Positions 7,912 to 56,338 of a stretch of 64,000 nucleotides of DNA are shown here, piece after piece (the stretch's first letter is position 1; each line of letters begins with the position of its first letter). Source of the DNA: Exobasidium rhododendri (Eukaryota; Basidiomycota; Exobasidiomycetes; Exobasidiales; Exobasidiaceae); NCBI GenBank assembly GCA_026210745.1, contig CP110631.1:5146001-5210000 (forward strand), given 5' to 3'. Made by a program: the position numbers and the translations under genes. Under the pieces are notes generated by a model, which was given only the letters and a program-made list of their open reading frames with translations, made no database searches and was not told the DNA's origin.

Positions 7912-8336
7912 ATTCGCCATGTATCGCACCACACATCGGCGACAGGATCACAAAGCCAGGTTGTGCGGCTCGAAATGGAATTGTTTTCATATGTATTTTT
8001 AGTTTGCACTGTATCCAATACTACCGTTGCCGAAAATGAAACCAAAGACAGAAGAATCGTCAGGAAAGGGTGGTGTTTGGTGATAGAGGTGATGGTCAAC
8101 CAAGGAGGCTGCAGTAATGTGACGCGAGCAAAGATGAAATGACCCGGGCTGAGTCAATGCACCACACATATTGCAGGCAATTGATTGACACACGCATTCA
8201 ACATGTAGAATCAAAGATACTTTATCTAGATACCTTCCTTTTCCCGGCCGTGTGACGTCCAAGATTTAGAAATACGGTGACTCATACATGGACAAGCGTG
8301 AGAGTGTGCGCAACAACGACGTACGGGTCGACGATC
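7912..8336. other. Intergenic region, no gene seen
   Basis: About 425 bases between the MFS stop and the small orphan ORF. Reading frames here are short and have no recognisable features. Confidence 0.5.
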
Positions 8337-8714: not shown

Positions 8715-8743
8715 GAGAGGATCGGGCACTCTATGAAAGGATA

Positions 8744-11445: not shown

Positions 11446-11473
11446 TATTAGTCCTCTTTCCCCTTTAATTCAT

Positions 11474-35142: not shown

Positions 35143-35628
35143 ATGCGCACCTTTACAGTGGCAGTGTCTGTTGCTCTCCTGGCGATAATGTCCCTTTTCC
35201 AGGTCGATGCGAGGGGGATCGGCGCATCTCCCGGCAAAGGCGGTGGCAATCGTCCTGAAGAAATTACAAAGTGCAACCTTGTCTGTACGACAAAGCCAGA
35301 TCATAAATGCGAGTACGACGATTGGTGGGAATTGGGAGCTACCAGCTCTTTTACGACTAGCAACTGGCGGGGTGAAAATGTAAAGAGTTGGTCGATCCAG
35401 GACAAGTACAGAGACCTTGCATTCACTGGAGTAGTCACCGATGGCAGCTTCATGCGCATTATATCAGACGGCACCTATGCGCCACAGGACGACTACTACG
35501 TCGGCTATGGATCTGGGAACAACATCGATTGGTATAAGATCACCGGAATGACCCACTGCAGCGTCACGAATTATTACGGCTATAATTCACTCAACAAAGT
35601 GACAGTCCGACAGCAATTCGCGGCATGA
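35143..35628 (+). CDS. Small secreted protein, unrecognised family
   Basis: A 161-aa single-exon protein starting MRTFTVAVSVALLAIMSLF, a clear signal peptide cleaved near VDA-RG. The mature part has a basic Gly-rich start, a CNLVC pair, two further cysteines (HKCEY, THCSV) and is rich in Trp, Tyr, Asp and Gly (DDWWELG, DDYYVGYGSGNN), which suggests a beta-sandwich or lectin-like fold. The frame extends upstream, but the signal peptide fixes the start. I do not recognise the family; it could be a wall protein, lectin or effector-like protein. It is divergent from the thaumatin-like gene. Confidence 0.65.
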   Translation: MRTFTVAVSVALLAIMSLFQVDARGIGASPGKGGGNRPEEITKCNLVCTTKPDHKCEYDDWWELGATSSFTTSNWRGENVKSWSIQDKYRDLAFTGVVTDGSFMRIISDGTYAPQDDYYVGYGSGNNIDWYKITGMTHCSVTNYYGYNSLNKVTVRQQFAA

Positions 35629-36028: not shown

Positions 36029-37260
36029 TCAGAAGAGCCTCGTGTTGTCGAAGCTTCCCTCCCAGAAAGAAGCCACTTCCGCCTTTAGGCCGCTCTCTTC
36101 CGGCGTTGGCTCGTACTGGCGGAGATGGCGAGCAGCTGTCCGGACCAATTCTGGGAGCTTGACTTTCGAATCGGCCACAGCATGCACAAGAAGGTAGCCA
36201 GGCTTGAAGACGGTCAAATCTTGGTCATACACGTAGGCATTCATCCATGTGCGTGGAACCTGGAAAGGAGAGCAAGGGGCGGGGAAAGGGATAGATCAGT
36301 GTGACGCTCGTTCATTTAGAGCTCTAGTATGGAGAGCACACGACACACACTCACGACTGTTGTCTTTGATCGGAAGAATTCGGTCATGGTGATGATGTTC
36401 TCCATAGCACCTTGATCTTCATGATCCAGCTTCAGTTGAGGATTGACCTTGTTGATACCGATGATGCCACTGAACAGCTCTACTGCCCATGCATTCACTC
36501 GTACGAAGAAGACACCGTTATTCAGACCATTGTGATCATTCGTGACGAGCAAGTGTATGTCGTCTTTAAATTCTGGACCTGGCAAAAAGGTAGCGAGGTC
36601 TATGGTGGGGTTCATGATGACTGTGTCTGCGTCGTGCCAGAAGACCCACTCGGCCCGCTTGTCCTCTGGCTTGTTGAGCTCTTCCAGGATGACGTTCAAA
36701 ATGGTGGCAGGCTTGGTGTAGATGCTGCCCATCAAGTTCTGCTTTTGAATAATCTGCTTGTGCCCATGTCTCCTTGCGTGCTCGGTATGACCGGCCAGGA
36801 TCTGCGGAGAGACGTTCTCCTCGCTGCCCTTGTACAGCATACCCTCGCCATAGAAGACGGTGACCTTGATAATGCGAGCGTTCTCCGTCGTGAGGCTTTG
36901 CTCTCCTACCAACGCTGTCTTGTGACCGCCTCGCAGCATCTGAGAGATGCTGCTCACGTTTTCACCACCTTGATAGAAGAGAAAGACTAGCAGAGCGATG
37001 ATGGTGAGACCGGCGTAAGCGGCATTCTTCCGCATCTGTTAAAGCAAGAAAGATGTTGGATTCATCAGCATAGGGATCCCCAGACAGAGAAATCTTATCG
37101 CTCGCCCATTCCTCACCTTGCTTGACCTGCTCACGATCTTCTCCTCGTGTAGGAGTCCGTACTGTTGAGCTGCTTGTTCTGATGTATCTGGACCTAGTTT
37201 GCTTTGGCTCCAGACGGGTGAGGAGTTCCTTAGACGGAGGTAGTCTGTGATGGACGTCAT
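36029..37260 (-). CDS. GT34 glycosyltransferase (galactosyl/mannosyltransferase, Gma12/Mnn10 type), copy A
   Basis: Exons 37260..37117, 37035..36355 and 36259..36029 give 351 aa. A 50-residue cytosolic tail and one hydrophobic helix (about 54-68, AYAGLTIIALLVFLFY) mark a type II Golgi enzyme. The catalytic domain shows KVTVFYGEGMLY, the metal-binding D183-A-D185 in WVFWHDADTVIMNP, LVTNDHNGLNNGVFFVRVN and the HEDQGAM motif, all standard for GT34. Members move galactose or mannose from a nucleotide sugar to glycans. It is divergent from copy B, with the same exon 2 length (681 nt) and the same final intron between V and PRxW. The following genes encode a UGM-like enzyme and a UDP-sugar transporter, so galactose is a plausible donor sugar. 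Confidence 0.92.
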
Positions 37261-38118
37261 TGATCAGGACCCAAACTCTACGAGCAGACAGGAAAAGTTG
37301 GACAACAGTGGTGCTCTTATAGATCAGCGACAGAGTTCATTTTGCATGTGCTCCTGGTGGGATGTTATAGAGAGAGAGACGTCTGCGAGACGAAGTCTGG
37401 ACGAGAGACAACACAGATCTGAAACACAGTCCTTTTGCTAAGGTGTTCCAAGCCACGGATGATGGGGAGATTTCAAACGAACAGATTGAAGCGTCAGCCA
37501 GTACCTAGGTATATCCAAGCCACAGGGGCTCGAGGCAAAATGTACCCGTAATGCGCCATGATTCAGATTTCGGGGTGTGGATTTTCCAAAGAGAGATTAT
37601 TCTTGTCTCGAAGCGGAAAAAACAGTCTGTCTTCTCTCTCTCTCTCTCCTCTCTCTCAGTCCCCTCGGAAATAGTCTAATCTGAATTAGGCTACACGAAG
37701 TTTGAAACAGGGATTTTTAAAATAAAAAGTAAAAGAAACTATTCGAAAGGTAAGGGCAGCACTGACTAGAATCAAATTCTTGAGATTTTTGTTCTAGGGG
37801 ATTTATAAGTGATTCCGGACAAACGCTAAGACTCTCGTCGCGCAAGGTGAGACCGGCGGGGAGGCGTACGAAGACAACGACCGCTCCAATGGACTTCCCA
37901 AGAAGGGCAGGGTCGATCTTCTACACAATTGATTCAGAATCAGAACCCCTCCAGTGAAGATTTCATTTAGAGGGAGAGAGCAAACAGACGGAGACAGAGA
38001 GAACGAGGGGAAGGCAAGAAGTCGGATAAAGTGATGAGGGATTTCCCTGACGAGTAGACACCGGCTCTTGATCCCTTCACCACCTTGTCAATACCCCCTT
38101 CATCCTCACACCTACGCC
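37261..38118. promoter_or_regulatory. Divergent promoter between the two GT34 genes
   Basis: An 858-base shared upstream region, with a CT-rich tract at 37632..37658 and no perfect TATA box. Shared control of the two copies is likely but unproven. Confidence 0.4.
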
Positions 38119-39270
38119 ATGAGTCTCCCATCGTACTCAACTCCACGCAATTCAGGGAAAAGGCGGGTGAGTAACAGTGTGTCGGCCAGATATACCCTCG
38201 AAAGTCAGGGAATTCCTCACTAAAGGCTATTGCTCTGATTCAACAGTGGAACCTACTCGCCTCTGTCGCCTTCATCCTCTTCATCTCGTACTGTCTCTGG
38301 CAGTCCCTTACACTCTCACCAGAAGGAGCAGCGTCTACGTCTATACCACCACTTCAAGTGGATGAAGTCTCTGCAAAGAGCGGCTTCGTATTCGACAAGC
38401 CAGGCACCAGGATTACAAAGGTGACGATCTTCTACGGCACTGGGATGCTGTACGATGGACCAGCAGACGTTTCGGAAAGAGTTCTTACGACGCATCAGTA
38501 TCACGCTGATCTGCAAGGACATCGACAAGTCATTCAACGACAGAACATCATGAACACGATCTGGACAAAGCCGGCGACGATCCTAGCTGTGATTCTCGAA
38601 GAACTGCAGAAGCCAAAGGGCGAGGGAGCAGAGTGGATCTTGTGGCATGACGCCGATACTGTTTTGATGAATCCCAACATCCATCTCGAGACGTACCTGC
38701 CCCCTTCGCACTTGGACGAAGATGTGCACCTCTTGGTGACGCACGATCAAGCAGGCCTCAACAACGGCATCTTCTTCATCCGGGTCAACACATGGGCGGT
38801 CGAGCTTTTCAGCTCTATCCTCGCTCTCCCCAAGCTCTCCAAGAACACGGGCTTCTCTCATGAAGATCAGGGAGCGATGGAGCACATGACTACCAAGGTG
38901 CCCTTCTTTGCCGAGAAGACGAAAATCGTGAGTGTGATGTCGCACGTTATCTATGTTGAGCTGCGACGTAACATTCCATCTGATGCAATGCTGTCTTCTT
39001 CCCATTTTCTTTCTCTGTGATCAGGTGCCTCGACACTGGTTGAATGCTTACCCTCAGTACAATGACGACGATGGAAATCCAAAGATCACAATGTTCCATC
39101 CTGGCTACCTCCTTGTCCACACTGTCGCCTGGTCCAAGACTTTCCTACCCGACTTTGTTGCAAAGGCGGAGCAACACCTTTTCGAAAACGAGCGCTCGCC
39201 GGAAGTGACAGGACTGAAGAGAGAGGTGCAATCCTACTGGGATGGCTCCTACGCAGGCGGCATATTCTGA
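38119..39270 (+). CDS. GT34 glycosyltransferase, copy B
   Basis: Exons 38119..38166, 38247..38927 and 39025..39270 give 324 aa. The first 16 residues are cytosolic, then a helix (WNLLASVAFILFISYCLW) anchors the protein in the Golgi membrane. The catalytic part matches copy A: VTIFYGTGMLY, WHDADTVLMNP with the DxD, LVTHDQAGLNNGIFFIRVN, SHEDQGAME and PRHWLNAYPQY. The central exon has the same length and the same intron phase as in copy A, so the two arose by inverted duplication; the N-termini have diverged, with a shorter tail here. The donor is probably UDP-Gal or GDP-Man; the choice cannot be made from sequence alone. Confidence 0.92.
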
Positions 39271-39809
39271 TGTCTGTCGCCAAATTTCAGTCAATGAGCA
39301 GCAATTCAGCTACGCGCTCTGACAGCGTATTCCTGTACGTTCGCATAGGTCCCAACAGCCGGTCTGACACGATATCACTACTCGTAAGATACCTGGACTC
39401 AGCGCTGAATCTAGTCGCCTTTCCCTCGCCTTTCACTCTGCAAGCTTCCTGAAACGGTCTGTCGACTGGCTCCCCGTGAATCCTTAATCTCCATGCAAGC
39501 CGCTTGTCCATGTACACTACCATTCCTCTTGTCCTTACTTTACACTACCATTCGTCCTGTCCTTAATTTGATAATCCTCGCAAATCTCCCACCATGAGCC
39601 TTATCTCAAAACAGATCAAAGAAAAGAAGAACATAAAGTGACGTTGAGACATTAAAGATAAGCCAGTGATGTAGGTGTAGGTTTTACAAAGATGTTTGAA
39701 TGGGGGTATAAGATGAGTTCGTTGAAAGAGAAAAAAATTGTTTGAGATGGGAGCGCAGTACGCCTTTCGTTATCATTGGGGAGGGAAGTGGAGAAGGAGC
39801 GTGCTTTGA
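39271..39809. other. 3' region between convergent genes with a tandem repeat
   Basis: About 540 bases between two stops. An imperfect tandem repeat starting TACACTACCATTC occurs at 39512..39537 and 39541..39566. No gene seen. Confidence 0.5.
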
Positions 39810-41504
39810 TCATGCCTGCACTTTGTTCAGATGTAACAAGGAGAGAGCAACATTATCAGGACGAGAAGACCAGTACACCTTTTCAGGCACACCTTTTGTG
39901 AGGACGTTGACAGCTTCGATTCCTTGTACGAATGCATAGTCTTGGTTGGAGGATTCATACCTCCATCCGCCGAATCGTCCTCGGGATAGAATTCCATACT
40001 TTTCCAGTTCAGGTAGGATCTGATTCTGTTCGGAAGAGGAAGATGAAGAAGAGAGCAGATCGTCACGGCCAAGGAAGGGGAGGGGGTAGCCCATGGCCAA
40101 GTGTTTGTACCAAATGGATAGAGGCTCTTCCTCTTCGGTGATTGCGCCCCATCGTCGTAGCTCGGCAAGGTGATCGACCACGAGACTGCCTTGGTCGACT
40201 GCAATTGGTCGATGGGCGGAACTCGAAGTTTCAAACATGATACTCCATCGCGGTTCAGCGTTGCTGTCGTCGTTGTCGATGTTGGAAAGAGAAGAAGAGA
40301 AGTTTGTCAAGACAGTGGCACGGTGGAAGCTGACATTGGAGTCGGCGGAGAAGATCCATGATTTGCCTTCGAGTACCGAGGGGAGCTTACCCCTGAAACC
40401 GAGGCCAACTGCTGTCGTGGACGAGTTCTTGAAATTGGGTATTTGTGCTGCTAGATCTGGTCGTTGGTCGCCAGTCAGTTTGAGAAGTTGATTGAGTGGG
40501 ATGGAACTGATGCAGCGAGAGTAGGAAATTGTTTCCCCGGTAGAGAGGTACGCTTTACGAGCCTCGATGTCGATCCTCTCTACGGTGGCACTGTACAATT
40601 GGTTCTGTGCGGGCAGCGACGAAGCGATGCTCTTCCACAGCGAGCCAGTGCCGAGTCGTGGGTAGGGGAAGGAGGTGGTGTCCAGTGGCCCCTGAAGCTT
40701 GACAAGCGAGTCGGAAGGATCGGGCACGTTGATCAGCTGTGACCCGGCTCGAAGACTTGTCCATGAATGATCCAATTCGCTCAAGTCCCACGCCCACTGC
40801 TTGCGGTTGAAGGGCTCAAAGAAGGTCTTTGACAGCGTCGAGCCGAATTTGTTGCGGTAGAATTCGCCCAGGTTGTCTGAGCTGGCAGAGCTACTTGCTG
40901 CTCCTTCCACTCGAGGATCTTCAGAGAGTTCTTGCAAGATCTGCTTGCCGTTGCTGAGATTGCCTAGGCTCTGTTGGATCGGCGTGGGGCACCATTGGTC
41001 TTGGATCCTTGCCCAGCCGCCTCTCTTGGGGTGCACCCAATCATCGTGTAGAGCCAGGGCCTTATCGAAAGCTTCGTAATGGGAGTGGATGACGTGTCCT
41101 CCCAGATCCCATCGGAAGCCGTGTTCGTCTACTTCGGTGATTGCCATGCCGCCTGGTCGATCCTGAGAATCCACCATGAGCCAATCGGAGCAGCCAGCGT
41201 CCTGCAATTGATGAGCAGCGCCAAGTCCAGTCGGTCCAGCACCGAGGATCAAGACTTGGACTTCGCTGTGCATGGCCCGCTCGAGATCACTCTCGAGCTG
41301 GCTCTCGTACTTTGCGTTGCTGGTGAAAGTGTACTCATCGTCGACGTCGGAGTCGTATGGCGTGATGGGTGATCGAAGACCGTCCGAGAATGTTTGGACA
41401 GACGACCAGGACGTCGACGGGGTGAGAGGCTGTGAAAAGTCGAGCATGCTGTCCTTGCTCAGAAAGGACGTCAGATAGTGCTGTGAGGTCGACATTGACA
41501 CCAT
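39810..41504 (-). CDS. UDP-galactopyranose mutase-like flavoenzyme
   Basis: A single-exon 564-aa protein. Residues 82-115 form an FAD-binding Rossmann motif (VLILGAGPTGLGAA), followed by RPGGMAITEVDEHGF and DLGGHVIHSHYEAFD, the region that in fungal UGM holds the flavin-gating His. Other fungal UGM segments are present: GTGSLWKSIAS, a Trp in the SWIFS segment, FHRATVLTNFS (contains a diphosphate-binding Arg) and GRFGGWRYESSNQD near residue 515. The segment that normally reads RPYNFKVW is EPFNRKQW, so one substrate-binding Arg is Glu230. UGM converts UDP-galactopyranose to UDP-galactofuranose. The ATG at 41504 lies about 83 nt after a TATATAT; an upstream in-frame ATG at 41582 is too close to that box. 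Between the GT34 pair and an acyltransferase. Confidence 0.85.
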   Translation of the reverse strand: MVSMSTSQHYLTSFLSKDSMLDFSQPLTPSTSWSSVQTFSDGLRSPITPYDSDVDDEYTFTSNAKYESQLESDLERAMHSEVQVLILGAGPTGLGAAHQLQDAGCSDWLMVDSQDRPGGMAITEVDEHGFRWDLGGHVIHSHYEAFDKALALHDDWVHPKRGGWARIQDQWCPTPIQQSLGNLSNGKQILQELSEDPRVEGAASSSASSDNLGEFYRNKFGSTLSKTFFEPFNRKQWAWDLSELDHSWTSLRAGSQLINVPDPSDSLVKLQGPLDTTSFPYPRLGTGSLWKSIASSLPAQNQLYSATVERIDIEARKAYLSTGETISYSRCISSIPLNQLLKLTGDQRPDLAAQIPNFKNSSTTAVGLGFRGKLPSVLEGKSWIFSADSNVSFHRATVLTNFSSSLSNIDNDDSNAEPRWSIMFETSSSAHRPIAVDQGSLVVDHLAELRRWGAITEEEEPLSIWYKHLAMGYPLPFLGRDDLLSSSSSSSEQNQILPELEKYGILSRGRFGGWRYESSNQDYAFVQGIEAVNVLTKGVPEKVYWSSRPDNVALSLLHLNKVQA

Positions 41505-42801
41505 GTCTAAAAACGGGTGGCGTCGAGAGCGAGGGTATGGGTATGTCAATTGATGGTGGTAACGGTCGAGAAGAGGGGACACAGACTATATATGCGATCT
41601 CACCCTTGAAAGAAGAAAAAAGATTCAAAGTCTCAGATCGGCCACAGGACGTACGTACCACACACTTTCTTCAGCCGAACAACAATGGAACTCTTACCCG
41701 AGGAGGGGCAGCCCAGGGAGAAGAGGGACGGGCCATGCTTAGTGCGTCCTTGGCAAGTGGGTGCACTGGGCGCTTCTTCCCTTCTTTTCCAACAGTGAAA
41801 GAATAATCTAATTCCTTATTTTTTTTCCTTCGTCATGTACGCACATCATTTTAGTTCTTACCAGTATTGAATTTCCCTGAGTAGCCCTGTTTTGAGACAG
41901 AGTTTAGCGTGATGTGACTTTCCTTGTGATGTGATTTTGGCCCCATCTGTTAGTTCGGGGCAGCCAGAGACTAAGGAAGGCTAAAGGCCCAGATCTGCAG
42001 TGTGTGAATCTCACATTGTTACTAGAAAAGGCAATCACACCAAATTTCGAATTTATATGTTTGCTTGGATCGTATACGCGCGTCTGAGACACGGCTTTTT
42101 TGGAACACGCGGTTTAGAAAGGGGTGGGTCGGGAGGGGGAGGAGAGGGGGGGGCGCCAAAGAAGGGGCGCGGCTGACGATGCTTTCAATCTCAGTCGCAT
42201 GACCATCCTGTACCTTTTTTTTCAACAGATTTTGGCCACTTTTGAGCGGGATGACTGTGCCTTTGCTAAACACATCAAAAACTTCTCAAATGTCTCATGA
42301 GTAGCAGCTCAGCGCTGGTGGGCGTACACATTGAAGCTACGTTGCGAGCATGTGAGACTCGACGATCAGTGTGTAGACGCAGAGCAATCGTTGACAGGCC
42401 AAAGACAAGGGAAGGGTGTGTCATGTGGTTCTACACCTCAGCGTTGAGAAGACAAAGAAGGCCAGCATCAGAGCAGTGACGACATTTCTTGCTGCTGTAT
42501 GGGTTGCTGCTAAGATGGGTGACACCCGCGGGAAGCGAATGGAAGTCTTGGCACGGCTGCTCGAGGGAGTCCCGCTCGCAGCTCGCAGCTTTGCATGACA
42601 ATAAATCACGTACGGACCGCTTTCACACGGCTGCTCTACACATTGACCTTTTGAAGAGGATTAGCCGTAATGGTAGATTGCAGGCCCGACAACACAGAGC
42701 GCTAAGGGCCCTTGATAATATAGTACAGAGTGCAGGGCAGGTGTAGGGAAGCGTTGCAGAGTAGACAGAAGGAAGCAAAGTAGGCAGAGTGGAAATGCAC
42801 A
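41505..42801. other. Intergenic region, no gene seen
   Basis: About 1.3 kb between the UGM-like start and the acyltransferase stop. Beyond the TATA box there are only short frames; a G-rich block lies at 42120-42155. Confidence 0.5.
41587..41593 (-). promoter_or_regulatory. TATA box of the UGM-like gene
   Basis: TATATAT, 83-89 nt upstream of the chosen ATG. It helps decide the start, because the longer frame would begin within 5 nt of this box. Confidence 0.55.
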
Positions 42802-44146
42802 TTAGACTGGTTGATGTCGAGCATTCTGTCGGCGTTCTTTGACTGATTTGTACCACTGCCCGATTGGTTTCTCGATGAGGAAGGTCGAAACCAGTGCCAA
42901 AAGGAAAGCAGTACCGGTGTCTCTTGCGGATTGAGCTCCTCGTACCCAGTGAGTAAAGACAAGTAGGGACGTTTGCCAAAGGTACCAAGAGTACGACACT
43001 TTACCGGCAAACCGTAGTGCTCTACCTTCCAATAACCAGATGCCTCCATGCTCTCCGTGTACTCCGATGATGACCAAGACAGCACTGATGGCCGACAAGG
43101 GGTCTGTCCAAGTCTGAGAAGCAGCGGCACGATCAGTCCAGCCTGACCCATACCTGTTTGCTTTATACTCGAATGGTTGAGGTCCCACCATGGCGCAAAG
43201 TGTGAGGACGATCCCTAGGACGCCAATATATGCTGTGCTCTGACGATACAGCCAACCTGGAATAGGAACGAAACGCAACGCTGACCCGAGAACCATCTTC
43301 CAGACATTCGATGCAAGGCTAAATTTCCAGTTGACACCGTACACGATGCCCACCAAGCTGGTATGCACCCTGATGAAATACGAGATCGCTATCAGGCCAA
43401 AGGCGACTATGCAACGAAGTCTAACTTTCATTCGAATGATAAAAGGGAGAAGCAACGACCAGATGATGTAGTACTGCTCTTCACATGCCAGTGACCATGT
43501 TTGACCAAAAGGACCTGGATCCAGGCTTTTAGGCCACAGGTCGGGAATATTCTGGACATAGAACACGGCGAGGAGTGAATAGCCTTGGATATAGCTTGCG
43601 ACATCTTCCATATCAGTCCTGAAGAATCGATATAGCACGTTCATGATTAGGACCATAAAGAGCAGAGCTGGAGCTAGTCGAACCATTCGATCAGCATAGA
43701 AATGGCCGAGGTGTCGATAAGATACTCGATTCTTCTCGCTTGACTCCGCTGTGATGTGTTTGTTCTGAAAGGGGGGGGAAGAGGAGCATGGGTCTCGGTA
43801 AGAACGGAACGGCTCTCCCTGTAGATGGGTGTAGAGGTCGTTCACTCACCTCCAAGCGAATAAGCACGCCTGTGATCAGGAAGCCAGACAAGACGAAGAA
43901 GATTGTCACCCCCATCGAACCGCTCGCTTCTCGAAGAATGTACGGCTCCTCAATGGTGTGGCCAAACAGTGTCAAAGCGATGGCTATTCCACGCAACCCT
44001 TCTAGGGAGGGTACGAAGCTTGCGTCGCCTGATGAAATGGGCTGCCATGATGACGTCGATCGATGGTGATCAACGTTCACAATTTCATCTGTCTTGCTCT
44101 CCTCGAAGCCGGCGTCCTGAAGCGATACGATCGTGTGCGCTGCCAT
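42802..44146 (-). CDS. Membrane acyltransferase, family 3 (OafA-like)
   Basis: Exons 44146..43850 and 43764..42802 (intron GTGAGT...TTTCAG) give 419 aa. The start SFVPSLEGLRGIAIALTLFGHTIE contains the acyltransferase-3 signature R-G-[IL]-A followed by the conserved His of the first helix, and SGSMGVTIFFVLSGFLI is the second helix of the family. Later TWSLACEEQYYIIWSLLLP matches the conserved W-S-L-x2-E-x2-F/Y segment. About ten helices are apparent. Members transfer O-acetyl or other acyl groups to sugars, cell-wall polymers or glycolipids in membranes. Its place between glycosyltransferases fits decoration of a glycan or glycolipid. Both junctions keep the frame. Confidence 0.9.
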
Positions 44147-45047
44147 AGTAGCTCAGTAGGAAGGCTCTCACTCCACCACGACAGTTTGATGCGCCTAGCG
44201 GTGGTGGTAAATCTCTTCAATCGCAAAGCTATTCCTCCTACAACATATGCGGTGAGTTAGCGTGCCATTGCAGCATGTACCCTCCGCTGCTGAACGTAGA
44301 ACATGTGACCGGGGTTCTTCGGCTAGTCTCCTTCTCGATGCACCTTTCTTCTGTTTACGGATGTTGGCCCGAGTCCTACCTGACCTTCCCTTTGTTGGCA
44401 ACGGGATGAGAGAGAAAGACTGTTCTGGTGAGGAAACACAAGCATTGTCATCACTGCAGTAATGTACTTCCTAGCCTAGCAGATTAAAAAAGGGTAACGG
44501 AAGGATAATCGTGTCTCGCATTGATGTTTCAGATTTCTGGCCGCATTGGCTCTGCCCGTACGCGTGTGTCCACATTGATCAAAAATGCTAATACAGACAA
44601 CACTAAGGGAATAGTCTAAATATGGAGATCTTTATTAACAAAACAAAGAGAGAAAAAAGAAAAGAATCAAATTTGGCACTTGCAAGCCCAGACCTCTCCG
44701 CCCGGATGGAGACTTACAATGTAGCACTTCCCTTGATCCCAACTTGAAATTCTTCTTACCATTTCCCAAGCGTCCCGGTCGCAGTGGGAGGACAATGCAG
44801 TAGACGACTATGGAAGGGGCAAGGTCGAGCAGCATTGTCCTCCAAGGAGGGTGCAGTGAAACACACGTGTGCCGCTGCCAAGGGTAGAAAAGGATCAGAC
44901 GCAGGCGCTCCCGTCCTGATAAAACTAGGCACAAACAGGAATCGCATCCGAGACACAGAAGTGTCGTTTAAATATTCCCACCACCACCAACACCACCACC
45001 ACCACTAGCTAGATCCTCGCCTCGCATTCTTTGTGGCATCCCGCAGT
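44147..45047. other. Divergent intergenic region, no gene seen
   Basis: About 900 bases between the divergent acyltransferase and GT25 genes. A TTTAAATA-like element near 44967 and a CAC repeat at 44980..45005 lie in the 80 bases before the GT25 ATG. Confidence 0.5.
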
Positions 45048-46467: not shown

Positions 46468-47389
46468 TTCCTCGTCGCTGTTAGGAGATCTGACGTAAAT
46501 GCTGTGACTCCCCCCTCATCTATCCTTGTACAATATGAATACGATAATAATGCGGACTGCCGATTTTGGAGCCTACTTAAGACAAGCATGGCACCATCTG
46601 CAATAGACAAAGGCAGAAGGGAAGGAAGGTCATGCGTTGCCATCTAAGTGTTCTAGCGAGAAGAAGCAGGAGATGGAAGCCATCCCCACGTTACGCTACG
46701 CTCTTGATAGCGCCAGAACAGAATAAAGAAGGGCTCACATGTAAGAGTGAGCAAGGGCCGCTCTATACAGGTAATTCGTGTTCAGGGGAATGTGGGAGGA
46801 CAGAGGGCAAGGCGCTGGGCGAGTCGAAAGTTCTTTGAGTGGTGCCAAGACGTGCCTAGCGCGTCCTCGTCGGTGCAATAAAATAAGGTGGGGAGGGCGC
46901 AAGGCAAGAGCAAGACTTTTCCCATTGAGCTTAAAATGCCATCAAATAATACAGAACACTATGACATTGAATACTGAGTAGGGGCGGGGACTATGATGAT
47001 AGTCTGCGCCTTCTATGAGAAAGGGGCTGTTGGATTCTTCGCAAATATCACAGAATGCATGGACAGTCGGAGCAGCCAAGCAACCAGGGCTGCCATCTCA
47101 ATTCTCAGCCCAACCAGGCTGATATAGACCACTCGGGAAGCATATGCCCTTTCTCCCTCCTTCACTTACTCCTTCGTCATCCCTTGTCGATACCCCCTCC
47201 CTTCATCTCTCACATCTCCCCCCTTTCTAGCACTCGTCCTTCTCTTCCTCCCCTTGATTCAACAAAGCCACCACCAGGACACCTGACACACACTCTTTCG
47301 ATATATACCTTCGTGGCCTGCTCAAGTATCGAGCATACTCGACACTCCTTTCAAACCCAGAAGAACAAAGCCTCTACGCCAGCAACACC
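46468..47389. other. Intergenic region upstream of the expansin-like gene
   Basis: About 920 bases without a gene. It ends with a CT-rich stretch (47150-47260), an ATATATA box and the leader of the expansin-like gene. Confidence 0.5.
47301..47307 (+). promoter_or_regulatory. TATA box of the expansin-like gene
   Basis: ATATATA, 83-89 nt upstream of the ATG and preceded by a pyrimidine-rich region. Confidence 0.6.
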
Positions 47390-48447
47390 ATGAGAAGTGC
47401 AATTCTCGTTTTCCTACTTGCTTTTGTGCTCGCTGTGACGATCGAGGCCCGAGACGATCCTGTCAATCGGAGACACCACAGCAAGATCAGTCGCTCCGTG
47501 TCACAAAACATCGAGCGTAGCAATCTAGAGAAGAGATCTTTCTCCGGTACTGCGTAAGTGAATCCTCGGCATGCTATTGCCTCTTGTTCTACATTTTTGC
47601 TGACTGAGATAGATACGAATCACGGAATCCACAGCACCTGGTATAGCTTCACAAAGGGTGCTTTTGGTGCCTGCGGTGATGCTCTTGACCCTGCCGACTT
47701 TGTTGTAGCACTCAACGAGGGTCAGTACGGCAGTCTGAATGCGCAATCACCCCATTGTTTCAAGACCATCACGATCAGCAACGGACACAAGACCACGCAA
47801 GCAAGGATCATGGATGCCTGTCCGAGAGGAGTTCAGTGCCAATCGGGTGCTTTAGACATGACTCAGAGTCTGTTTGAGTTCTTTAATCCACTTGGCGTGG
47901 GTGTTTTTGAGATGACGTGAGTGTTGCTTTGACGGTTGCAATTCAAGATAGTCAGCAAGTGATTATCAGTCTCATCACCCTCTTTCTTTTCTGACACAGA
48001 TGGTGGTTCGGTGATGATGGCGACAATTCTGACTCCTCCGCCAAGAAGACAGTGAGCGCAGCCTCTCAAGCGCAAGCAAAGAATGAGAAAGCTCAAAAGA
48101 AAGCTGCTGCTGAAAAGTCAAAGAAAGCCGAAGAAGCGAAAGAAGAAGCAGTAAAGGAGAGCAAGATAGCCAAAGCGAAAGCAGAGAAGGAGAAGAAAGA
48201 AGAGAAGGAAGAGGAGAAGAAGCAAGCGAAGTTGGCAAAGGAGAAGAAGGCCAAGGAGGAAGCAGCGGAGAAGAAGGCAGAGGAAAAGAAGAAGGAAAAG
48301 GAGAAAGAAGAGAAGGAAAAGGCACAAGAGAAGAAGCAAGCGGAGGAGGCAAAGGTTGCTCAAGCACAGAATGAGAACATCGCCTCCTTTGGTGAGATCA
48401 TGGAGACGCTCAACGCACTGGTCGTCGACGCCATCGACAGCAAGTGA
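47390..48447 (+). CDS. Secreted expansin/RlpA-like protein with a charged helical tail
   Basis: Exons 47390..47553, 47635..47916 and 48000..48447 give 297 aa. A signal peptide (MRSAILVFLLAFVLAVTIEA) and a KR processing site (about residues 47-48) precede a double-psi beta-barrel domain: TWYSFTKGAFGACGD, DFVVALN, RIMDACPRGVQ, LDMTQSLFEFFNPLGVGVFEMTWWF. The rest (about residues 158-272) is an almost uninterrupted Lys/Glu/Ala stretch (for example AEKEKKEEKEEEKK), as in a stable single alpha helix or coiled coil, before a short non-charged end. Expansin-like proteins loosen wall polymers without hydrolysis. Such a highly charged helical tail on a secreted barrel is unusual and may act as a spacer or wall anchor. 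It interrupts the row of Golgi enzyme genes. Confidence 0.88.
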
Positions 48448-48950
48448 GCCCAACTTACGACACACTCACCTTCATCTCTCCTTTGTATGCCCCCTCGTTG
48501 TCTCTCCCATGTCTGACTCTAATTACACTACTCTGCGCCGGCCGCTCCCCCTTTCCATCTCATCTCACCAGCAGGTTCGACACTCGCTTCCTTCTGCTGT
48601 GCCAAGTGCTTGTTTTCTACCTTGCTGCAATACACAATACTTTCATTGACGATCATATCTGCAGCCAGAGACGACCATGAAACAGGGGGGAGAAGAACGG
48701 GACAAGCTTTGACGTTGGGTAAAGCAGATGCAAACCGCTTGACGATACTTGTCATCGTATGAGGCTCAGTCAAGAAGACGACCGCCACAGCTACGTCTCA
48801 TTACAGCACCGGAATACAAAGTACAGAAGATAGGATTATACTACAACAGAAGTGTCTTCGGACACAAGCAAACAAGGCATATACACACGATCGGCAGTGA
48901 AATCTACAATCTAAGCCAAGTGGCAACCTCTAAAAGGAATGAAGAAGAGA
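48448..48950. other. 3' region between convergent genes
   Basis: About 500 bases between the expansin-like and GT25 copy B stops. No gene seen. Confidence 0.5.
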
Positions 48951-50339
48951 TCACGAGGAGAACTTCGGATCTAGGAGCCGATGCAAGCTTCCTCGCACAC
49001 TATTGTGAATATTGAGAGATATCCCGACATCTGGACCGTCGTGGCGCTTGTCGAGCTGTTGTCCTTCTTCTCCTCCTGTTTCTCCGTGAGCGAGATCCCT
49101 CTTCCCGTTGATGTCGCTGTTCTTGAAGTTGCCCGCCACACGCCATTGATCCATGATGGGCGGAAAGACGGTGTACGACTCCACTCTACCATCCCCGGCT
49201 GCCCAAGCCATCGCTAGATCGATCGGCGCATTGAGCGTTCGAGTCAACTGATAGAGGAGACGAGCTGCACCCCTTCGAGTCACTGCATAGCTGTCGGTGC
49301 AGATAGGACCACGAGAGCGCTGAATGACTCGGCGTCGGGGAATACTAAGAGCGTCGGGCATGTCGATCTGAAGGCCGTAATTTCTGAACATTTCCTTGAC
49401 GGAGTCGCCCATGTTCGTGCCATCAGGTGCGGTCTCGTCTTCATAAACGAGGTAGGGAGGTGCATCGTAGTCTACCGTCTTATTCCCAACAAGAGGCAAA
49501 GGCTTCTTCTCGACCGTTGGACCTGCCCAAGCGCCTTCGAGGCATGCACCGAGGTAGAGGAGGTCCCAGTCCGCCTCTCCATACGGAGCAGATGCTATAG
49601 GTCCCCTTGTCTTCCTATCCTTTTTCATAGATCCGATCAAGGTCGCCAGTGGATCCTGGAAGCTCTGAAACGTCTTCTTCACATCCACACTCCAATCTAC
49701 GTCATCCTCTAAGATGAGGGCACTCTCGACTCCGTCCTCCAGCACCTTTCGAAGTGCGTTGATGTGGGAACGATAGCTGCCAAGCAAGGTGGGTAGCATA
49801 TCCGGTGCATGCTGAGCTATGGATAGTGAGCCAATCTCTTCCTTCGTCACAGCGTCTAGGAACTCAAGTCGAACACCAGAAGCATACGCCATCAATGCCA
49901 ATTCATCTCGTTTGTCTACTCTGCTTGGCAAGTTGAGGACGTAGATCTTTTCGAAGCCTAGCGTGCTGTTCACCGGCACACCCTGATGAGTGCCAGTGTA
50001 GTTCAGTGGCAGATCGAATTCATGCACAGTTCTGTCGTCTGTTTGTGCTTCTATATACCCGGTTGTGACGTCTTCATGCTGCTGGTACGGATAGGATGCA
50101 TTCTGGCGGAGAAAGTCGCCCAGAAGAGGCGTCTCCTGAGCTTGATGTTGCCGTAAGCTAAAGGAACAAGAGGCAAGAAGGGTGACAAGGACAACCAAGA
50201 CGAAGATGACGATGTACTTTTTCCTGTCTATTCTTCTTGGGATCTGGAAGACCGGTGGAGCGTGGTGAGGAAGAGAGTACGGGAGATCGCCGCTGCTCTT
50301 GTCGCTTGCTGCCGACACCGGCAGAGGATGATACGACAT
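48951..50339 (-). CDS. GT25 glycosyltransferase, copy B (intronless)
   Basis: A single-exon 462-aa protein with a cytosolic tail and a membrane anchor at about residues 43-62 (IVIFVLVVLVTLLASCSF). The catalytic part parallels copy A: NSTLGFEKIYVLNLPSRVDKR, SALILEDDVDW, DWDLLYLGACLEGAW and DSYAVTRRGAARLLYQL. It lacks all three introns of copy A and carries longer loops (for example around PTVEKKPLPLVGN). The C-terminal 60 residues are polar. As in copy A, a galactosyltransferase role in the secretory pathway is likely from family knowledge. The missing introns suggest an intron-loss or retrocopy origin, or an old, separate lineage. Confidence 0.9.
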   Translation of the reverse strand: MSYHPLPVSAASDKSSGDLPYSLPHHAPPVFQIPRRIDRKKYIVIFVLVVLVTLLASCSFSLRQHQAQETPLLGDFLRQNASYPYQQHEDVTTGYIEAQTDDRTVHEFDLPLNYTGTHQGVPVNSTLGFEKIYVLNLPSRVDKRDELALMAYASGVRLEFLDAVTKEEIGSLSIAQHAPDMLPTLLGSYRSHINALRKVLEDGVESALILEDDVDWSVDVKKTFQSFQDPLATLIGSMKKDRKTRGPIASAPYGEADWDLLYLGACLEGAWAGPTVEKKPLPLVGNKTVDYDAPPYLVYEDETAPDGTNMGDSVKEMFRNYGLQIDMPDALSIPRRRVIQRSRGPICTDSYAVTRRGAARLLYQLTRTLNAPIDLAMAWAAGDGRVESYTVFPPIMDQWRVAGNFKNSDINGKRDLAHGETGGEEGQQLDKRHDGPDVGISLNIHNSVRGSLHRLLDPKFSS

Positions 50340-51326
50340 ACAAAGTGATGTTGGTGGGGTAAGTGAAGGGCGAGCAAGTCGACTAGTGCCGACTGCCTGC
50401 TACGAAACCTTGCTTGGGAGAACAGCCCGCAATCTCATCATTTTTTCCAACGTTGCCTACCTCGACACGATCGCCTTCATCGGACGCATTGGGATGGACT
50501 CCCCAATCAAATAATTTCTAATCTTTCGCCTCCAAAATTTTATAGTGTATGTTTGTTTCATCATGTATAATTTCCCCGCTACTGAAGAGAAAAGAAAAGT
50601 GTAAATCATTCTGGAGACGTTGGAAATAAAATCGAGACTTTCCGTGGAAAATCGAGGATCGCCCCCTTAGTGTCAACTAGCACAGTGCCGTTGCGTGTAA
50701 TTGAGGTAATGGTGTCTGGTCGATGATACGACTTGCGTATCTTAGTCAACCCGTGTAAGCCACAAAGCCGCCGTGTCCTTCCACCACCAATCTCTGTTCT
50801 CTAATACTGTAGTGGACGTGCGTGTTCGAGACAAAATGAATTGCGAGTCGCATACAAGAGAAAGAGAACAATAGTGTACGTGTCTCAGATTGAGTAAGGA
50901 CTTAAATTTACATAGTTTAAGCGTATTTGCGTTCGTCTCGAAGAATTGTTTGTCCGAGACTGAACTTTGTCCCTGAACGACCGTTGCGTGCGACTATTGG
51001 AGTGGCTGTCTCAGCGAGGCAAGTCAGATGATGTGACGCTGGGAAGGTGTCAGGAAGAAAATGTGATTGATCTATTAGTAGTAGTGATGTAAAGTGCTCG
51101 TGCAGTGCTAATTAGGCGGTTCGTTATATACAGATTCGTTCTCTCGCGAAGAGGACGACGTAGTTGAGGGACAGATAAAGATGTTGAGGTGGAGAAAGAG
51201 GCTCCTCGATGCGCCGGCTCGGTTGGCAGCAATCTCAGGTATTCGTTGATGATGATTGTAGGCAGATTCTTCCTTTGTCCAGCCTGTGTAATAGATGATT
51301 CTCTTGTTGACGTAAGGATAAGCTGT
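50340..51326. other. Intergenic region, no gene seen
   Basis: About 990 bases between the start of GT25 copy B and the stop of the nucleotide sugar transporter. AT-rich around 50520-50600 and without supported features. Confidence 0.5.
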
Positions 51327-52645
51327 TCATGACACCTTGTGAGTACTAGAAGACGCCCTCTTGCGATGTCCTCCCGAATTACGATCGATGGACACGCCTA
51401 GAAGCTCCTCGCTCTCGTCACTGTCGCTGCTGACGTCTCTCTCCGCGATAGGGATGGCTTGTTCTTGCGCCTTTGCCGGCTGAGCGAATCGATTGTATGC
51501 GATGATACTGGAGATGACAATCGTCGATCCGATCAATGCGATGACTTGGAAACTAGCTCTTCCCAGTCCGACACAGATCAAGAACGTCAAAACAATCGAA
51601 GCACTGATCGCCAGACTCTTCTGAATGTTGTCTGCGTACTTCATGATGAGAGCGACCACTAGGCCGCCCATTACGTTTGCTCCCACTGTCGTCCAGGCCC
51701 AGAAGCCAAAGTACATGAAAGGATGATTAATTCCGCTCTGCCAAGCATCTACGAGACAAGGCAAGAGTGCAGGCATTAGGCCAAAGGAGCCTAATTGAAT
51801 GTTTGTAGCCCATAGATTCGTCTTTCCGTCTTTGAGAATCTTTTCGAGAAAGACGCTGGCGAAACCAGAGATGAAGCAGGCAATGATGATGGAAGCCATG
51901 CCAAGGATAGGACTACGTTGAGCACTGCCGTTGACGACTTGTGTGGCCTTGTCTTGCCCGGCGAGTTGGACGAGTACAACACCGAACGTCAACGTGCCCA
52001 GACTGATCCACCTCCTGACTCCGATGACTCGATTGAGCATCAACGATGTGCACAGCGCCGTCGTGACAAATTTGAGCTGTGAGGCGATCATGAAAGTGGT
52101 TGCGTCTGTTGTCGAAGGGAGAGAGAGAGAGAGTTCATTGCATCAGCATCGTCTTTGCTGCTGACATAAAGATAAAAGACTGAACTCTACTCACCGAGAT
52201 TCTGCGCACCGATGACGGCGAGGTTTGTCTGGATGACGTACAGTGTCGCCGGGATGGCGAGCTTCCAGGCAGACTTGGAAAAGAGTAGGACGGAGACACA
52301 CTTTATCGTCGCTCGTATCCTGTCACTCCTAGCAAGGGAGGGCTTCTCGCTACTGCCCTCCTCTGGTATTGTTGGGCTTCGACTGGGCAGGAGGGTATAT
52401 TCGCTGTTGGCAGTGGCAGTACTGCTGGCGGTGCTCTTGTACTGGGTTATGGAGAGGATCGCGAAGGATATGATCGCCTTGAAGACTTCCACGAGGACCA
52501 CCATGGAAGGCGCAAAGTAGACATGGCCTTCCGCGTCTGGAATTCTGCCTTCGTGTGTCGAGAGGAAGAAGAGACTGTTCTGGAAGACGAGGATGACGAG
52601 ACAGACTGAGCCGATCCACGCCCCCTTTGCAAGTGCGTCTGACAT
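51327..52645 (-). CDS. UDP-galactose-type nucleotide sugar transporter (SLC35A family)
   Basis: Exons 52645..52195 and 52105..51327 (intron GTGAGT...CAACAG) give 409 aa; the frame opens upstream only at TTG, so the ATG at 52645 is used. Segments such as VYFAPSMVVLVEVFKAIISF, NLAVIGAQNLG-DATTFMIASQLKFVTTALCT, ILGMASIIIACFISGFASVFLEKILK and YADNIQKSLAISASIVLTFL are the conserved core of UDP-Gal/UDP-GlcNAc/CMP-sialic acid transporters, with about ten helices. Such proteins exchange cytosolic nucleotide sugar for UMP across the Golgi membrane. The C-terminal tail has a Ser/Asp/Glu cluster. In this neighbourhood it could feed the GT34 and GT25 enzymes; substrate specificity is an inference. The intron has a GA repeat. 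Confidence 0.9.
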
Positions 52646-55240
52646 GGTGTTCAATGGCAGAGTTGTGGTCGGGGAGGCGAATGTGATGATCGCAAAGAGA
52701 AGGGAAAAAAAAGATGACGGCGTGTTCTACAAAGCTTGGCAACCTCTTTTGCAACGCCAAGGGGTCAACCAGTGAGTGCACCTAACAAGATCACTATGTT
52801 GTCAATTTTTGATTCTAATTTACTTCCCGAAATGATCGACACGTATTTCGAATACAAATTGCACACAATCACAGACCCTCTGTAGCTGCTCAGGTGTACC
52901 GGAGGAGCACGCCCCGTAGCTTGCTCTTGCCTGCAGCATCTGTACTAGGGCGCATGCACTAGCATACACTATAAACAAGGAGATCTAAGGAATATTCTAA
53001 TTGGACACTCTAAGTCCCGCGGGAATATTGAAAGTCGTTCTTTGTCAAAAAGCAAAGCTAGCTTAGTGTCCCACAACCATTGAGTCACTTTAGTACAGAT
53101 GAAACAAAAAAGTAAGCCTATTCTTCATCTGCCAGGAACGAAGTGTCGATCAGTTCTATAGAGAGAGAGATGTAGGGGCGGTATATTCTTAAGATCTGGC
53201 GTATCGAGCGGCTCTATTCGAGCTGAGGAGGAAAGTAAAGAAATTACAAAAGTATTCGTCTTGACCGCAGGAATGGGACCGGGCGGCAAGGGCTTTGCAA
53301 TGCAGGAAAAGAAACAAGTAGGAGTGAGCCGCTGCTTTGTATACATACTAGAGACAAGGCGCGCCCCGCCATCCCGCCGTCGTACTGAGTCCCTCCATTG
53401 TTTCAATTGTTTCAAATTGTCGTCGTGCCTGTGTAGAGGAGGGGGGAGGAGAAGAAAGTGGGACGGTATCTGAGTGAGTCGAGGCGCAGTAAGCGGAAAG
53501 GACGGGGAGGGGACACTCGTCGCACATTCTGATTGTTTTATTGTATCTGAGACTTTCTCTCTGTCTCAGACTTTTCATCTTGTATCTATAGATAAATGTG
53601 GCGCGTGTGCGCTTGGTGCCTCACTGTCTCACTTTGCATTGTCAAAAAGGGTTAAGAGTAGGAAATGTCTCACAACTTGAGTGGATGGAGGGTCAGCCCC
53701 ATGGTGCAGGGTGGACTCTCTCACTCGCCAGTGAAATACTCAAGCAACATCGATAGTGATAATGACCATGCACAGCCAAAGGGTAAGAGACCAAGTGCAT
53801 CACGGCCAAGTCAGGCACTTGGTCCGGGAATTCAGAGTGCTGCTGCAGTACAGTTAGAGTGTTATGCTTGCCATTGTTCAATGTGATCCTATACTATGGG
53901 GCGGGTGTGCAGCAGCTTTACTGGCTGAGAATGCCAAGTCCGAGCAAGTGCGCAAGAGCCGGTGTGCTGCATCTCAAGTCTGCCTGCATGGACATGTAGC
54001 ACTCAGCCTAACCCCCCCTTATCTGAATTGAGCTCGCCTGAATGCGATGTGCCGGACGGAAGCCGTCTAGCCAAGTCGATCCGCCAGGTTTGCCGCTCCT
54101 CCTCTTCACGGCCCTCCCTGGTCCGCATTGTCGGTCAAGATTGGAACCCAGCATTCACCATTCAAGGGGGGAAGAGAGAGAGGGGGATGACGAACGCGAT
54201 CCCGCCGCTTCATTCCGGCATATCTTGTCTCGAATCCAGAGAGTAGGGTAAAAAGAGCAAGTGGACCTTTTTAGTTGTGGGGAGACGCATTGGGGGTGAA
54301 TTAATATTCCGAGATTGAGACTGTCACCTTCCAGAGAAAAGAAGGATATTGTATGCTTGTGTAGTTTACTATCGGCTGCTAGCTTGTGTGTCAAACTTTC
54401 GTGCTAATGCAGAACGCGGCTAGAAGGAAATTATAACTTCTATTCAAACTATTAATACACTCGGTCGATTTCTTGAATTTAACGAGAAGACTCCTCTGGA
54501 TCGGCTTCTTCGTCCCAAAGAGGAAGGTGTGTATTAAATTAAAAGAATAAAATAACAAATGAAATGTAAATTACAAACAATAGAACAAGAAAATTGTCTT
54601 CTCTTGCGTCAATTAATCATGCCACACGCATCCCACGCCCCTTTGACGCATGGGGAAAAGATTAAGGTAGATAGATCTTGGAGGCCTTTTGCATTCATAC
54701 GCCTTTTGAACTATCGCTTTTTCGTCGCCCTGTCCATTTACCTTTTTTTTTTCTCTTTGCGTCCTTTTGGCCGGCTCGACTTTGGCCCTAGAACCCTGGA
54801 AACCTTTTCCCATTGTTACGCATATGGGGGGCCTATACCGAGCGTACATGGGGGGAGAACTCGAAACATTATTATTGTTCCCTTTGCTGAAATCTGTCTA
54901 CGATTTTTATTACCCTCTGTCTTACACTTGTGCAGTCCCGATATTGCGATCCCATGTCGCAAGCAGCGTCCAGCAACTCGTTTGTATTCCCGTCCGGCTT
55001 TGGGTGCCAGAGGTGTTTCACTTCCGCAAAAAGGAAAAGCAGGAGTGTGGTGTGACTAAAGAGAGTCCTTTATGCGATATGCGATACGGGTCTTCACAGA
55101 TGCTTCATATAGTAGCCCTCTGGCCAGTTCAAGGGTCGTCTTCCTTCCTTTCGTTCGTCTACTACCACCACCACCTTCGCTGATCTACACACGCACGCAC
55201 ACACTCTCTCTGTCTCTTTCTCCCACCAAAGAAGAAGAAG
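52646..55240. other. 2.6-kb region without a supported gene
   Basis: Short frames only, none resembling a protein family. It contains an inverted repeat at 53546..53570, a strongly AT-rich part (54420-54620) and, near its end, a CT-rich leader before the PIG-L gene. Confidence 0.5.
53546..53570. repeat. Small inverted repeat (hairpin)
   Basis: TCTGAGAC and GTCTCAGA are perfect complements separated by a 9-base pyrimidine loop, an 8-bp stem if transcribed. Confidence 0.6.
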
Positions 55241-56338
55241 ATGATGTCGACAAGAGGTCCTGCACACACGCAAGACGCCATTCACCCCTTCTTGCAAGCT
55301 GATATCTCCAGCCAAGTAGATGCCCAAGAATTCCTATACAATGACGTACTTCAACTTCGAAGGCAAAGCGACATTGTCTTGATACAGGAACACACCACCA
55401 AGAAGAGGTCCTACAGTTTTCGTTCGTCACAGTACAGTCCCTATGCTCACGAAGCATCTCAAGTCAGCACTACTTCCTCCAGCAAACCACTGCCCTTCCT
55501 GCGCGAGCTGTTCATCTCACCGCACCCTGACGACATCTGCTACAGCTGCTTCGGTACTGCCGTGCAAAAGGAAGGCAACCCCAACAACACACACAATGGT
55601 CGAATGATCGTCACTGTGTTCAGCCAGAGTCGATGCTGCAATGGTCACCTGGCCGAGAAGCTGAACCGAAACGTTAGCGTCATCACCGACGTTCGAAAAG
55701 AAGAAGATGAAAGCTTTGCAAAGTCCGTCAACTGTAGGCTGCTACAATTGGGACTATCCGACTCCAGCGCTCGGGACGAGTTCAGTCGAAAGGAAGACTT
55801 GGCCATCAAGTCCAAAGCAGAGATGGCGGAAGCAACAAAGATGCATCCTTCCTACGCGCGGGTGCAACAAGCTCTTAACGATATCATCCGATGGGCCATC
55901 AAGTGCAAGGCTGCCATCTACTTGCCACTCGGTATCGGATGCCACATCGATCACATGATGACAAGGGTGGCCGCCGAGTCCATCATGGAAGAAATTCGAC
56001 GGGAGTCACCCACAAAGAAGCTGCCAGTCATGGTGACCTACTACGAAGACCTACCCTATGCATTCTACCAGACAGAAGAGACGATCGAAAAGATGGCCAC
56101 CACCGTGATTGCAGGAAAGTCCGAAGTCTGTCTAGTCCCGCTCGACGATGAACTGTGGGAGCGCAAAACGGCAGCTGTACAGGCGTACGTCACGCAGATG
56201 AAACCGACCATCCTACCCTCGATGGAGAGTAGGGCCATCTTCCTTGCAGGGAGTGAAACCCACTCAGAGGAAGAGGGGACGCAGAGAAGAGAGAGGACAT
56301 GGATCCTTAGCCCTGGTGAATGGCTAGCAGGCTTCTGA
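55241..56338 (+). CDS. PIG-L family deacetylase (LmbE-like)
   Basis: A single-exon 365-aa protein. The zinc-binding motif SPHPDD (H95, D97, D98) opens the domain; R152-K-x-E155 matches the conserved RxxE segment and H235-I-D-H238 is the C-terminal HxxH motif, so all metal ligands of the family appear present. No signal peptide or membrane helix is apparent. Members remove N-acetyl groups from GlcNAc-containing lipids or small glycosides (GlcNAc-PI in GPI synthesis, mycothiol, antibiotics). The length and N-terminal 85-residue extension differ from the ER-anchored GPI enzyme, so a soluble deacetylase is more likely. It flanks the glycosyltransferase stretch and could act on an amino-sugar intermediate. 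Confidence 0.88.
   Translation: MMSTRGPAHTQDAIHPFLQADISSQVDAQEFLYNDVLQLRRQSDIVLIQEHTTKKRSYSFRSSQYSPYAHEASQVSTTSSSKPLPFLRELFISPHPDDICYSCFGTAVQKEGNPNNTHNGRMIVTVFSQSRCCNGHLAEKLNRNVSVITDVRKEEDESFAKSVNCRLLQLGLSDSSARDEFSRKEDLAIKSKAEMAEATKMHPSYARVQQALNDIIRWAIKCKAAIYLPLGIGCHIDHMMTRVAAESIMEEIRRESPTKKLPVMVTYYEDLPYAFYQTEETIEKMATTVIAGKSEVCLVPLDDELWERKTAAVQAYVTQMKPTILPSMESRAIFLAGSETHSEEEGTQRRERTWILSPGEWLAGF

Follow-up and report, generated by a model that had tools for sequence, protein, structure and literature searches.

Gene content of the cluster

The window described here, the whole stretch of 64,000 nucleotides that was analysed, comes from Exobasidium rhododendri and covers C2:5146001-5210000 of contig 2 (C2, 5,450,147 bases), in a genome of 17.65 Mb and four contigs. 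It contains a cluster of eight genes, all intact, which encode two GT34 and two GT25 glycosyltransferases, a flavoprotein resembling UDP-galactopyranose mutase (UGM), an SLC35A-type transporter, an acyltransferase-3 and a PIG-L deacetylase. Each of the eight spliced gene models reads openly from ATG to stop. An earlier note on this DNA had placed eight genes of these families within 20 kb, and Pfam, solved structures and the intact spliced models bear this out. The genes and an adjoining regulator are listed below in window positions (aa, amino acids; ORF, open reading frame).

36029..37035, minus strand: GT34a glycosyltransferase; 2 exons, intron 36354-36260, 303 aa; PF05637, 54.5 bits
38119..39270, plus strand: GT34b glycosyltransferase; 3 exons, 324 aa; PF05637, 46.6 bits
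39810..41504, minus strand: FAD enzyme, UGM-like and actinobacterial in type; single exon, at most 564 aa; assigned from matches to solved UGMs, alignment, tree and model
42802..44146, minus strand: acyltransferase-3 membrane O-acyltransferase; 2 exons, intron 43849-43765, 419 aa; PF01757, 45.3 bits
45048..46467, plus strand: GT25a glycosyltransferase; 4 exons, 402 aa; PF01755, 30.7 bits
48951..50339, minus strand: GT25b glycosyltransferase; one exon, 462 aa; PF01755, 38.3 bits
51327..52645, minus strand: SLC35A-type nucleotide-sugar transporter; 2 exons, intron 52194-52106, 409 aa; PF04142, 178.2 bits
55241..56338, plus strand: PIG-L (LmbE-like) sugar N-deacetylase; one exon, 365 aa; PF02585, 35.1 bits
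56797..59223, minus strand: Zn2Cys6 transcription factor ORF (PF11951 and PF00172); a candidate regulator by position alone

The Pfam cut-offs are 23 bits for GT34, 24 for GT25, 27 for Nuc_sug_transp, 31 for Acyl_transf_3 and 28.2 for PIG-L. The Nuc_sug_transp match sits in exon 2 of the transporter gene; the Acyl_transf_3 score listed comes from exon 2, and the first exon of that gene scores 29.6 bits, below the cut-off. In the UGM-like ORF, Pfam recognises the domains Amino_oxidase and NAD_binding_8. Acidic metal-binding motifs are kept in the four transferases, DAD in both GT34 enzymes and EDD in both GT25 enzymes. Hydropathy gives each of these four proteins a single N-terminal transmembrane-like stretch, such as Golgi type II enzymes carry, and gives none to the mutase-like protein and the PIG-L deacetylase. 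GT34a and GT34b look like the product of a local duplication, since they share 56% identity over 186 aa; GT25a and GT25b are 30-35% identical. The nearest solved structure of GT25b is procollagen galactosyltransferase 1 (24 bits), and those of the transporter are CMP-sialic acid transporters. A sequence search of the PDB with GT34 gave no matches, and neither did NCBIfam searches with the window PIG-L and GT25b. The nearest named relatives belong to Acaromyces ingoldii for the mutase and to Meira miltonrushii for GT25 and PIG-L.

The cluster edges are clear among the ORFs scanned. Left of the cluster these encode a phosphatase, a reductase, MFS transporters, regulators, a histidine kinase and a peroxidase, and the Zn2Cys6 factor ORF adjoins on the right. 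No glycan-building family was matched in 19 further window ORFs, one of which is exon 2 of GT34a, with many smaller ORFs outside the scan. Two small proteins look secreted: one just left of the cluster (35005-35628), which has no Pfam family, and one between the GT25 genes (47258-47920), whose scanned part gave nothing in Pfam and which we presume to be expansin- or RlpA-like from its look.

The mutase-like enzyme and the deacetylase

The best solved-structure matches of the window mutase are eukaryotic UGMs, with a maximum of 244 bits over about 460 residues. Its AlphaFold model (pLDDT 81.6) has its nearest folds in the enzymes of Trypanosoma cruzi (TcUGM) and Aspergillus fumigatus (AfUGM), and alignment and model together give it the UGM fold with the FAD-binding motif. 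It resembles these eukaryotic enzymes (AfUGM, 3UTE and 3UKH; TcUGM, 4DSG) in fold (TM 0.83 to 4DSG by target length), in about 30% identity and in the FAD motif, but differs from them in its clade, which is distinct and adjoins actinobacterial proteins, in four of eight NADPH contacts, and in being accompanied by a canonical UGM in the same genome.

This canonical UGM was found by a genome search with the window protein and lies on contig 1, at C1:5393210-5394816. Compared with AfUGM, one of its exons reaches 266 bits across 202 residues, and another bears Phe66 and Ser93, which belong to the NADPH site. The window gene is thereby ruled out as the sole galactofuranose enzyme of the organism. 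A stretch at C3:62787, which resembles UGM only weakly (25 bits), was left out of the UGM count.

An alignment of 12 sequences (A1) joined the window protein to five rows taken as bacterial, to which it is 42-46% identical, and six taken as fungal, to which it is 53-72% identical. A maximum-likelihood tree was then made from 34 rows chosen from the best 120 of 318 matches, with P0006, P0022 (a near-copy of L051), P0023 and P0025 omitted; organism names are available for some rows only, and P0028, P0034, P0037 and P0038 are called actinobacterial, and the P rows without an organism name fungal, by similarity and an earlier tree. The window mutase falls inside a fungal clade of 11 rows (support 100/100), which includes Acaromyces (P0015) and the ascomycete Cosmosporella (P0018). 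The next neighbours of this clade are two unassigned proteins (98/94) and then an Acidimicrobiaceae protein (99/97). Canonical Glf is placed elsewhere in the tree, as is the contig-1 enzyme; the deeper forks are weakly supported. The window mutase does not group with fungal UGM, of which the tree included one canonical member. This placement fits a movement of the mutase gene from actinobacteria into fungi. The Cosmosporella protein, a close relative of the mutase that groups with P0014 and P0017, is nested among exobasidiomycete sequences, a possible case of transfer from fungus to fungus.

Three active-site residues, H137, R252 and R395, are invariant in all sequences of A1. They correspond to His63, Arg182 and Arg327 of AfUGM, which had been mutated according to PDB titles and which we take to be the catalytic histidine and two diphosphate-binding arginines. 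By alignment, AfUGM Tyr419, Arg447, Tyr453 and Asn457 are also kept, as Y473, R510, Y516 and N520, while Asn207 is not, being Leu or Asp depending on a gap. The NADPH contacts of eukaryotic UGM are given in PMC7662398 as Asn57, Ile65, Phe66, His68, Arg91, Ser93, Tyr104 and Tyr317; in prokaryotic UGM, according to the same paper, the residues for binding the ADP portion are missing. Four of these eight contacts are changed in the window mutase (Phe66 to His140, Ser93 to Gly163, Tyr104 to Thr174 and Tyr317 to Phe385), three are kept (Ile65, His68 and Arg91), and Asn57 is not mappable; most aligned bacterial relatives have Tyr at the position of Tyr317. The flavin and diphosphate contacts are kept. 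We infer that the flavin chemistry is retained and that the reductant differs, as possibly does the sugar or the nucleotide. The NCBIfam Glf model TIGR00031 has no match at E 1e-5 in the window protein or in two bacterial relatives. Among six bacterial genomes searched for Glf, two mycobacterial ones have separate genes for it (341-344 bits, over the cut-off), comparable to the fungus with its separate UGM.

PIG-L enzymes strip N-acetyl groups from hexosamines. In the window PIG-L the motifs SPHPDD and GCHxDH are invariant across 13 aligned sequences, and its model (pLDDT 72.5) is nearest to the sugar N-deacetylases of glycopeptide antibiotics, diacetylchitobiose deacetylase, BshB and MshB. 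It shares fold and zinc motifs with the solved members of the family (Dbv21, Orf2*, diacetylchitobiose deacetylase, BshB and MshB) but belongs to a fungal subfamily, is 13-20% identical to them in the structural matches, and has no characterised member among the relatives found. At E 0.001 it has 21 relatives besides itself, in a subfamily that looks fungal. Against a profile of nine PIG-L proteins that neighbour bacterial mutase genes it scores 2.3 bits only, so the fungal and the bacterial partner proteins are assigned to different subfamilies. On account of this score, a single-operon transfer that brought both bacterial genes into the fungus is rejected.

Linkage of mutase and deacetylase genes in bacteria and other fungi

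In bacteria, genes for mutases of this type are linked to PIG-L genes. A prokaryote genome collection was scanned with a pattern made from A1, which gave 102 stretches and 28 confirmed UGM-like loci, and PIG-L was sought in their flanks by tblastn with nine PIG-L proteins taken from some of these loci. By tblastn a PIG-L gene flanks the mutase at 21 of the 28 loci, two of them weak (L070 and L076, 32-34% identity), versus nine loci by ORF calling. At 18 of the 28 it lies directly upstream, with a gap to the plausible start of mostly 3-7 bases, once 49, and two pairs overlapping or nearly so. These tight pairs belong to 16 Mycobacteriaceae, one Microbacteriaceae and one Treboniaceae. Eight bacterial genomes in which PIG-L genes were counted have 3-6 detected copies each.

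The surroundings of the pair differ between loci. Thirteen loci have a common neighbour cluster, whose member at the mycobacterial locus L053 is Obg; there (about 4651-12263) the pair is flanked by Obg and an amino-acid kinase on one side and NAD synthase on the other. At the Acidimicrobiaceae locus PIG-L is the second gene downstream of the mutase, in a stretch with a cellulose-synthase-like GT2, a GH26 and a GH113. In Planctomycetaceae the mutase is followed by PIG-L, in Brevibacterium PIG-L lies 7 kb off, and a GT4-type gene is near the Gryllotalpicola locus. We estimate three to five independent mutase-PIG-L pairings.

In other fungi, linkage was approached through metagenome protein tables, by comparing the longest contig of each protein cluster by base count and source tag. 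Between the top 20 UGM and 21 PIG-L homologues, three pairs, whose UGM members are presumed to be fungal, have identical longest-contig base count and source (16,900, lgn; 22,412, jgi; 5,403, lgn), and random jitter of the lengths reached three such matches in none of 200,000 trials. The other 99 listed UGM homologues have no contig match with PIG-L homologues. Homologues of GT25b and PIG-L share one further contig of 28,089 bases (ena). These matches are strong though indirect evidence, and mutase and PIG-L genes are probably linked in other fungi as well. Conserved co-location, the check that had been proposed for the eight genes, holds for UGM and PIG-L in bacteria and, by contig matches, in other fungi, and on one contig for GT25 and PIG-L; for UGM and GT25 no such match was seen.

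The pairing may have arisen twice, because the fungal and mycobacterial PIG-L proteins are of different subfamilies. Should both links be functional, one pair of activities has been brought together on two occasions. No paper on a UGM-PIG-L pairing was found in the open-licence literature, including under protoporphyrinogen oxidase, the name carried by many of these mutase-like proteins, and searches on GT25 clusters and subtelomeric clusters likewise gave nothing.

The chromosome arm and the putative pathway

Contig 2 ends in a TTAGGG-type telomere repeat. The cluster lies about 248-268 kb from this chromosome end and opens a 268-kb arm (C2:5182000-5450147, window 36000 to contig end). Whole-genome searches with nine glycosylation families, whose loci were merged by hand and whose counts are lower bounds, place 26 of 54 loci on this arm, which is 1.5% of the genome and where 0.82 would be expected; tandem copies among them are not independent, and three of the 54 are below the Pfam cut-off. 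Beyond the window, the arm holds 18 of 46 loci (0.63 expected). Where the arm begins was decided after the fact, and GT71, GT17 and GT2, three of the nine families, were included once they had been seen there; with the six families of the finding only, outside the window, it still holds 9 of 21 loci (0.29 expected). By family, the arm has all four GT34 loci, all three GT25 loci, five of eight transporters and four of eight GT71 loci. The GT34 count comes from a protein query that found no others in the genome, three of the four being detected also by Pfam, and the GT25 count comes from Pfam. That every GT34 and GT25 locus lies on one arm is more than chance. Paralogous modules are also present: an adjacent transporter-GT25 pair recurs at C2:5296-5300k and a transporter-GT34-GT71-GT34 stretch lies at C2:5420-5433k.

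An acyltransferase-3-like stretch at C2:5385782-5386872 has three in-frame stops, which may be due to introns or to decay of the copy. Elsewhere in the genome, GT71 genes adjoin a nucleotide-sugar transporter at C3:967137-971786 and an acyltransferase-3 gene at C3:4886203-4898635, near the end of contig 3.

The reading that we favour, with confidence only just past the halfway mark, is that the cluster serves a Golgi-assembled, secreted glycan or glycolipid, for which a cytosolic mutase-deacetylase pair makes an unusual, probably amino-sugar, donor. PIG-L and the FAD mutase would jointly remodel a nucleotide sugar in the cytosol, a step supported by the recurrent pairing of their genes. The likeliest donor would be an N-acetylhexosamine nucleotide in furanose or amino-sugar form, the furanose being suggested by the mutase fold and the amino sugar by the removal of N-acetyl groups from hexosamines by PIG-L enzymes. 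The SLC35A protein would import the donor to the Golgi, where GT34 and GT25 enzymes would attach it, or partner sugars, to an acceptor; the product would be O-acylated by acyltransferase-3 and would be secreted or wall-bound. Import, transfer, acylation and secretion are proposed from knowledge of the families and from co-location only, and the substrate, the order of steps, their compartments, the co-regulation of the genes and the product are likewise putative. The earlier note had proposed a glycan or glycolipid cluster built on galactose-type enzymes; the idea of a glycan or glycolipid pathway stands, and the galactose type finds no support for the key enzyme, of which a canonical form is encoded elsewhere and the window copy is bacterial in type.

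Several observations weigh against this proposal. The 16 mycobacterial tight pairs occupy largely one conserved site, so they represent few independent events, and L053, the sole mycobacterial locus with scanned neighbours, has no transferase among the three. PIG-L was not detected by tblastn in the flanks of two Brachybacterium and five Gottesmanbacteria loci. UGM and GT25b homologues have no contig match among 119 x 57 rows, and Meira, which has relatives of PIG-L and GT25, has no protein named among the best 120 of 318 UGM relatives. The different PIG-L subfamilies do not imply the same substrate in bacteria and fungi. GT31 enzymes act as galactofuranosyltransferases, and none of this type was identified in the cluster. 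Nearness alone does not prove one pathway, and the arm-wide enrichment supplies the best rival.

According to this rival, which we consider unlikely and yet the most serious of the alternatives, the eight genes form no pathway of their own. Duplicated glycosylation genes would gather near the telomere, with the whole arm as their reservoir, which would make these eight neighbours, and only UGM and PIG-L would be functionally tied. The concentration of the nine families on the arm and its paralogous modules speak for such a reservoir. The cluster is however denser than the rest of the arm, with eight genes in 20 kb versus 18 found in the remaining 240 kb, where only some families were searched, and the contig matches in other fungi, three for UGM-PIG-L and one for GT25-PIG-L, also count against it.

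The scheme of the earlier note, in which a galactose-type glycan would draw on UDP-galactofuranose from the UGM-like enzyme, is improbable. It is consistent with the shared fold and the kept equivalents of His63, Arg182 and Arg327, and a UDP-galactofuranose pathway is reported as consistently present in Ustilaginomycotina in PMC8092308. That report can be explained by the contig-1 enzyme, which is available for the role, while the window protein departs from AfUGM at Phe66, Ser93, Tyr104, Asn207 and Tyr317, is not matched by the NCBIfam UGM model, and is accompanied by no known furanosyltransferase family identified in the cluster. BshB is a deacetylase of bacillithiol synthesis. Two scanned bacterial partner proteins resemble it (99 and 88 bits, below cut-off), and with the transferase-free neighbourhood of L053 this would suit a pair that makes a small N-deacetylated sugar metabolite, thiol-like or a natural-product sugar, next to unrelated transferases; this is very improbable, given the Acidimicrobiaceae mutase among GT2, GH26, PIG-L and GH113 genes, the GT4-type gene at Gryllotalpicola and the position of the fungal pair amid transferases and a Golgi-type transporter.

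The mannosylerythritol-lipid and cellobiose-lipid clusters of Ustilaginales are clustered glycolipid genes in the same subphylum and have P450s and a fatty-acid synthase, or Emt1, Mac1 and Mac2. Their transferases are of other families than GT34 and GT25, and neither P450 nor fatty-acid synthase was found among the 29 window ORFs scanned with Pfam, no direct search having been made with Emt1 or Mac proteins. Closest in logic is the Aspergillus galactosaminogalactan cluster (uge3, gtb3, agd3, ega3 and sph3, as listed in PMC4817252), which likewise couples donor conversion, transfer and N-deacetylation. The families of that list (epimerase, Gtb3-type transferase, CE18 deacetylase, Ega3 and Sph3 hydrolases) are absent from the same Pfam scans, with no direct search made with those proteins. 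Its deacetylase Agd3 belongs to CE18 and acts on the polymer (PMC7229062), unlike the PIG-L of the window cluster, which has no transmembrane-like stretch.

A bolder extension of the favoured reading, which we regard as a doubtful prospect, is that the mutase-deacetylase pair makes an aminofuranose or otherwise new donor in Actinomycetota and fungi, that the deacetylase was recruited independently in each kingdom, and that here the donor feeds a subtelomeric, family-rich glycan system, a glycan class undescribed in fungi. If the favoured reading is right, a new activated sugar would be directly within reach through two fungal genes of one exon each, a two-gene pair in bacteria and a few candidate substrates. 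A bacterial sugar-remodelling enzyme would have been taken up by fungi and built into Golgi glycosylation, and the telomere-proximal arm would be a workshop for surface glycans.

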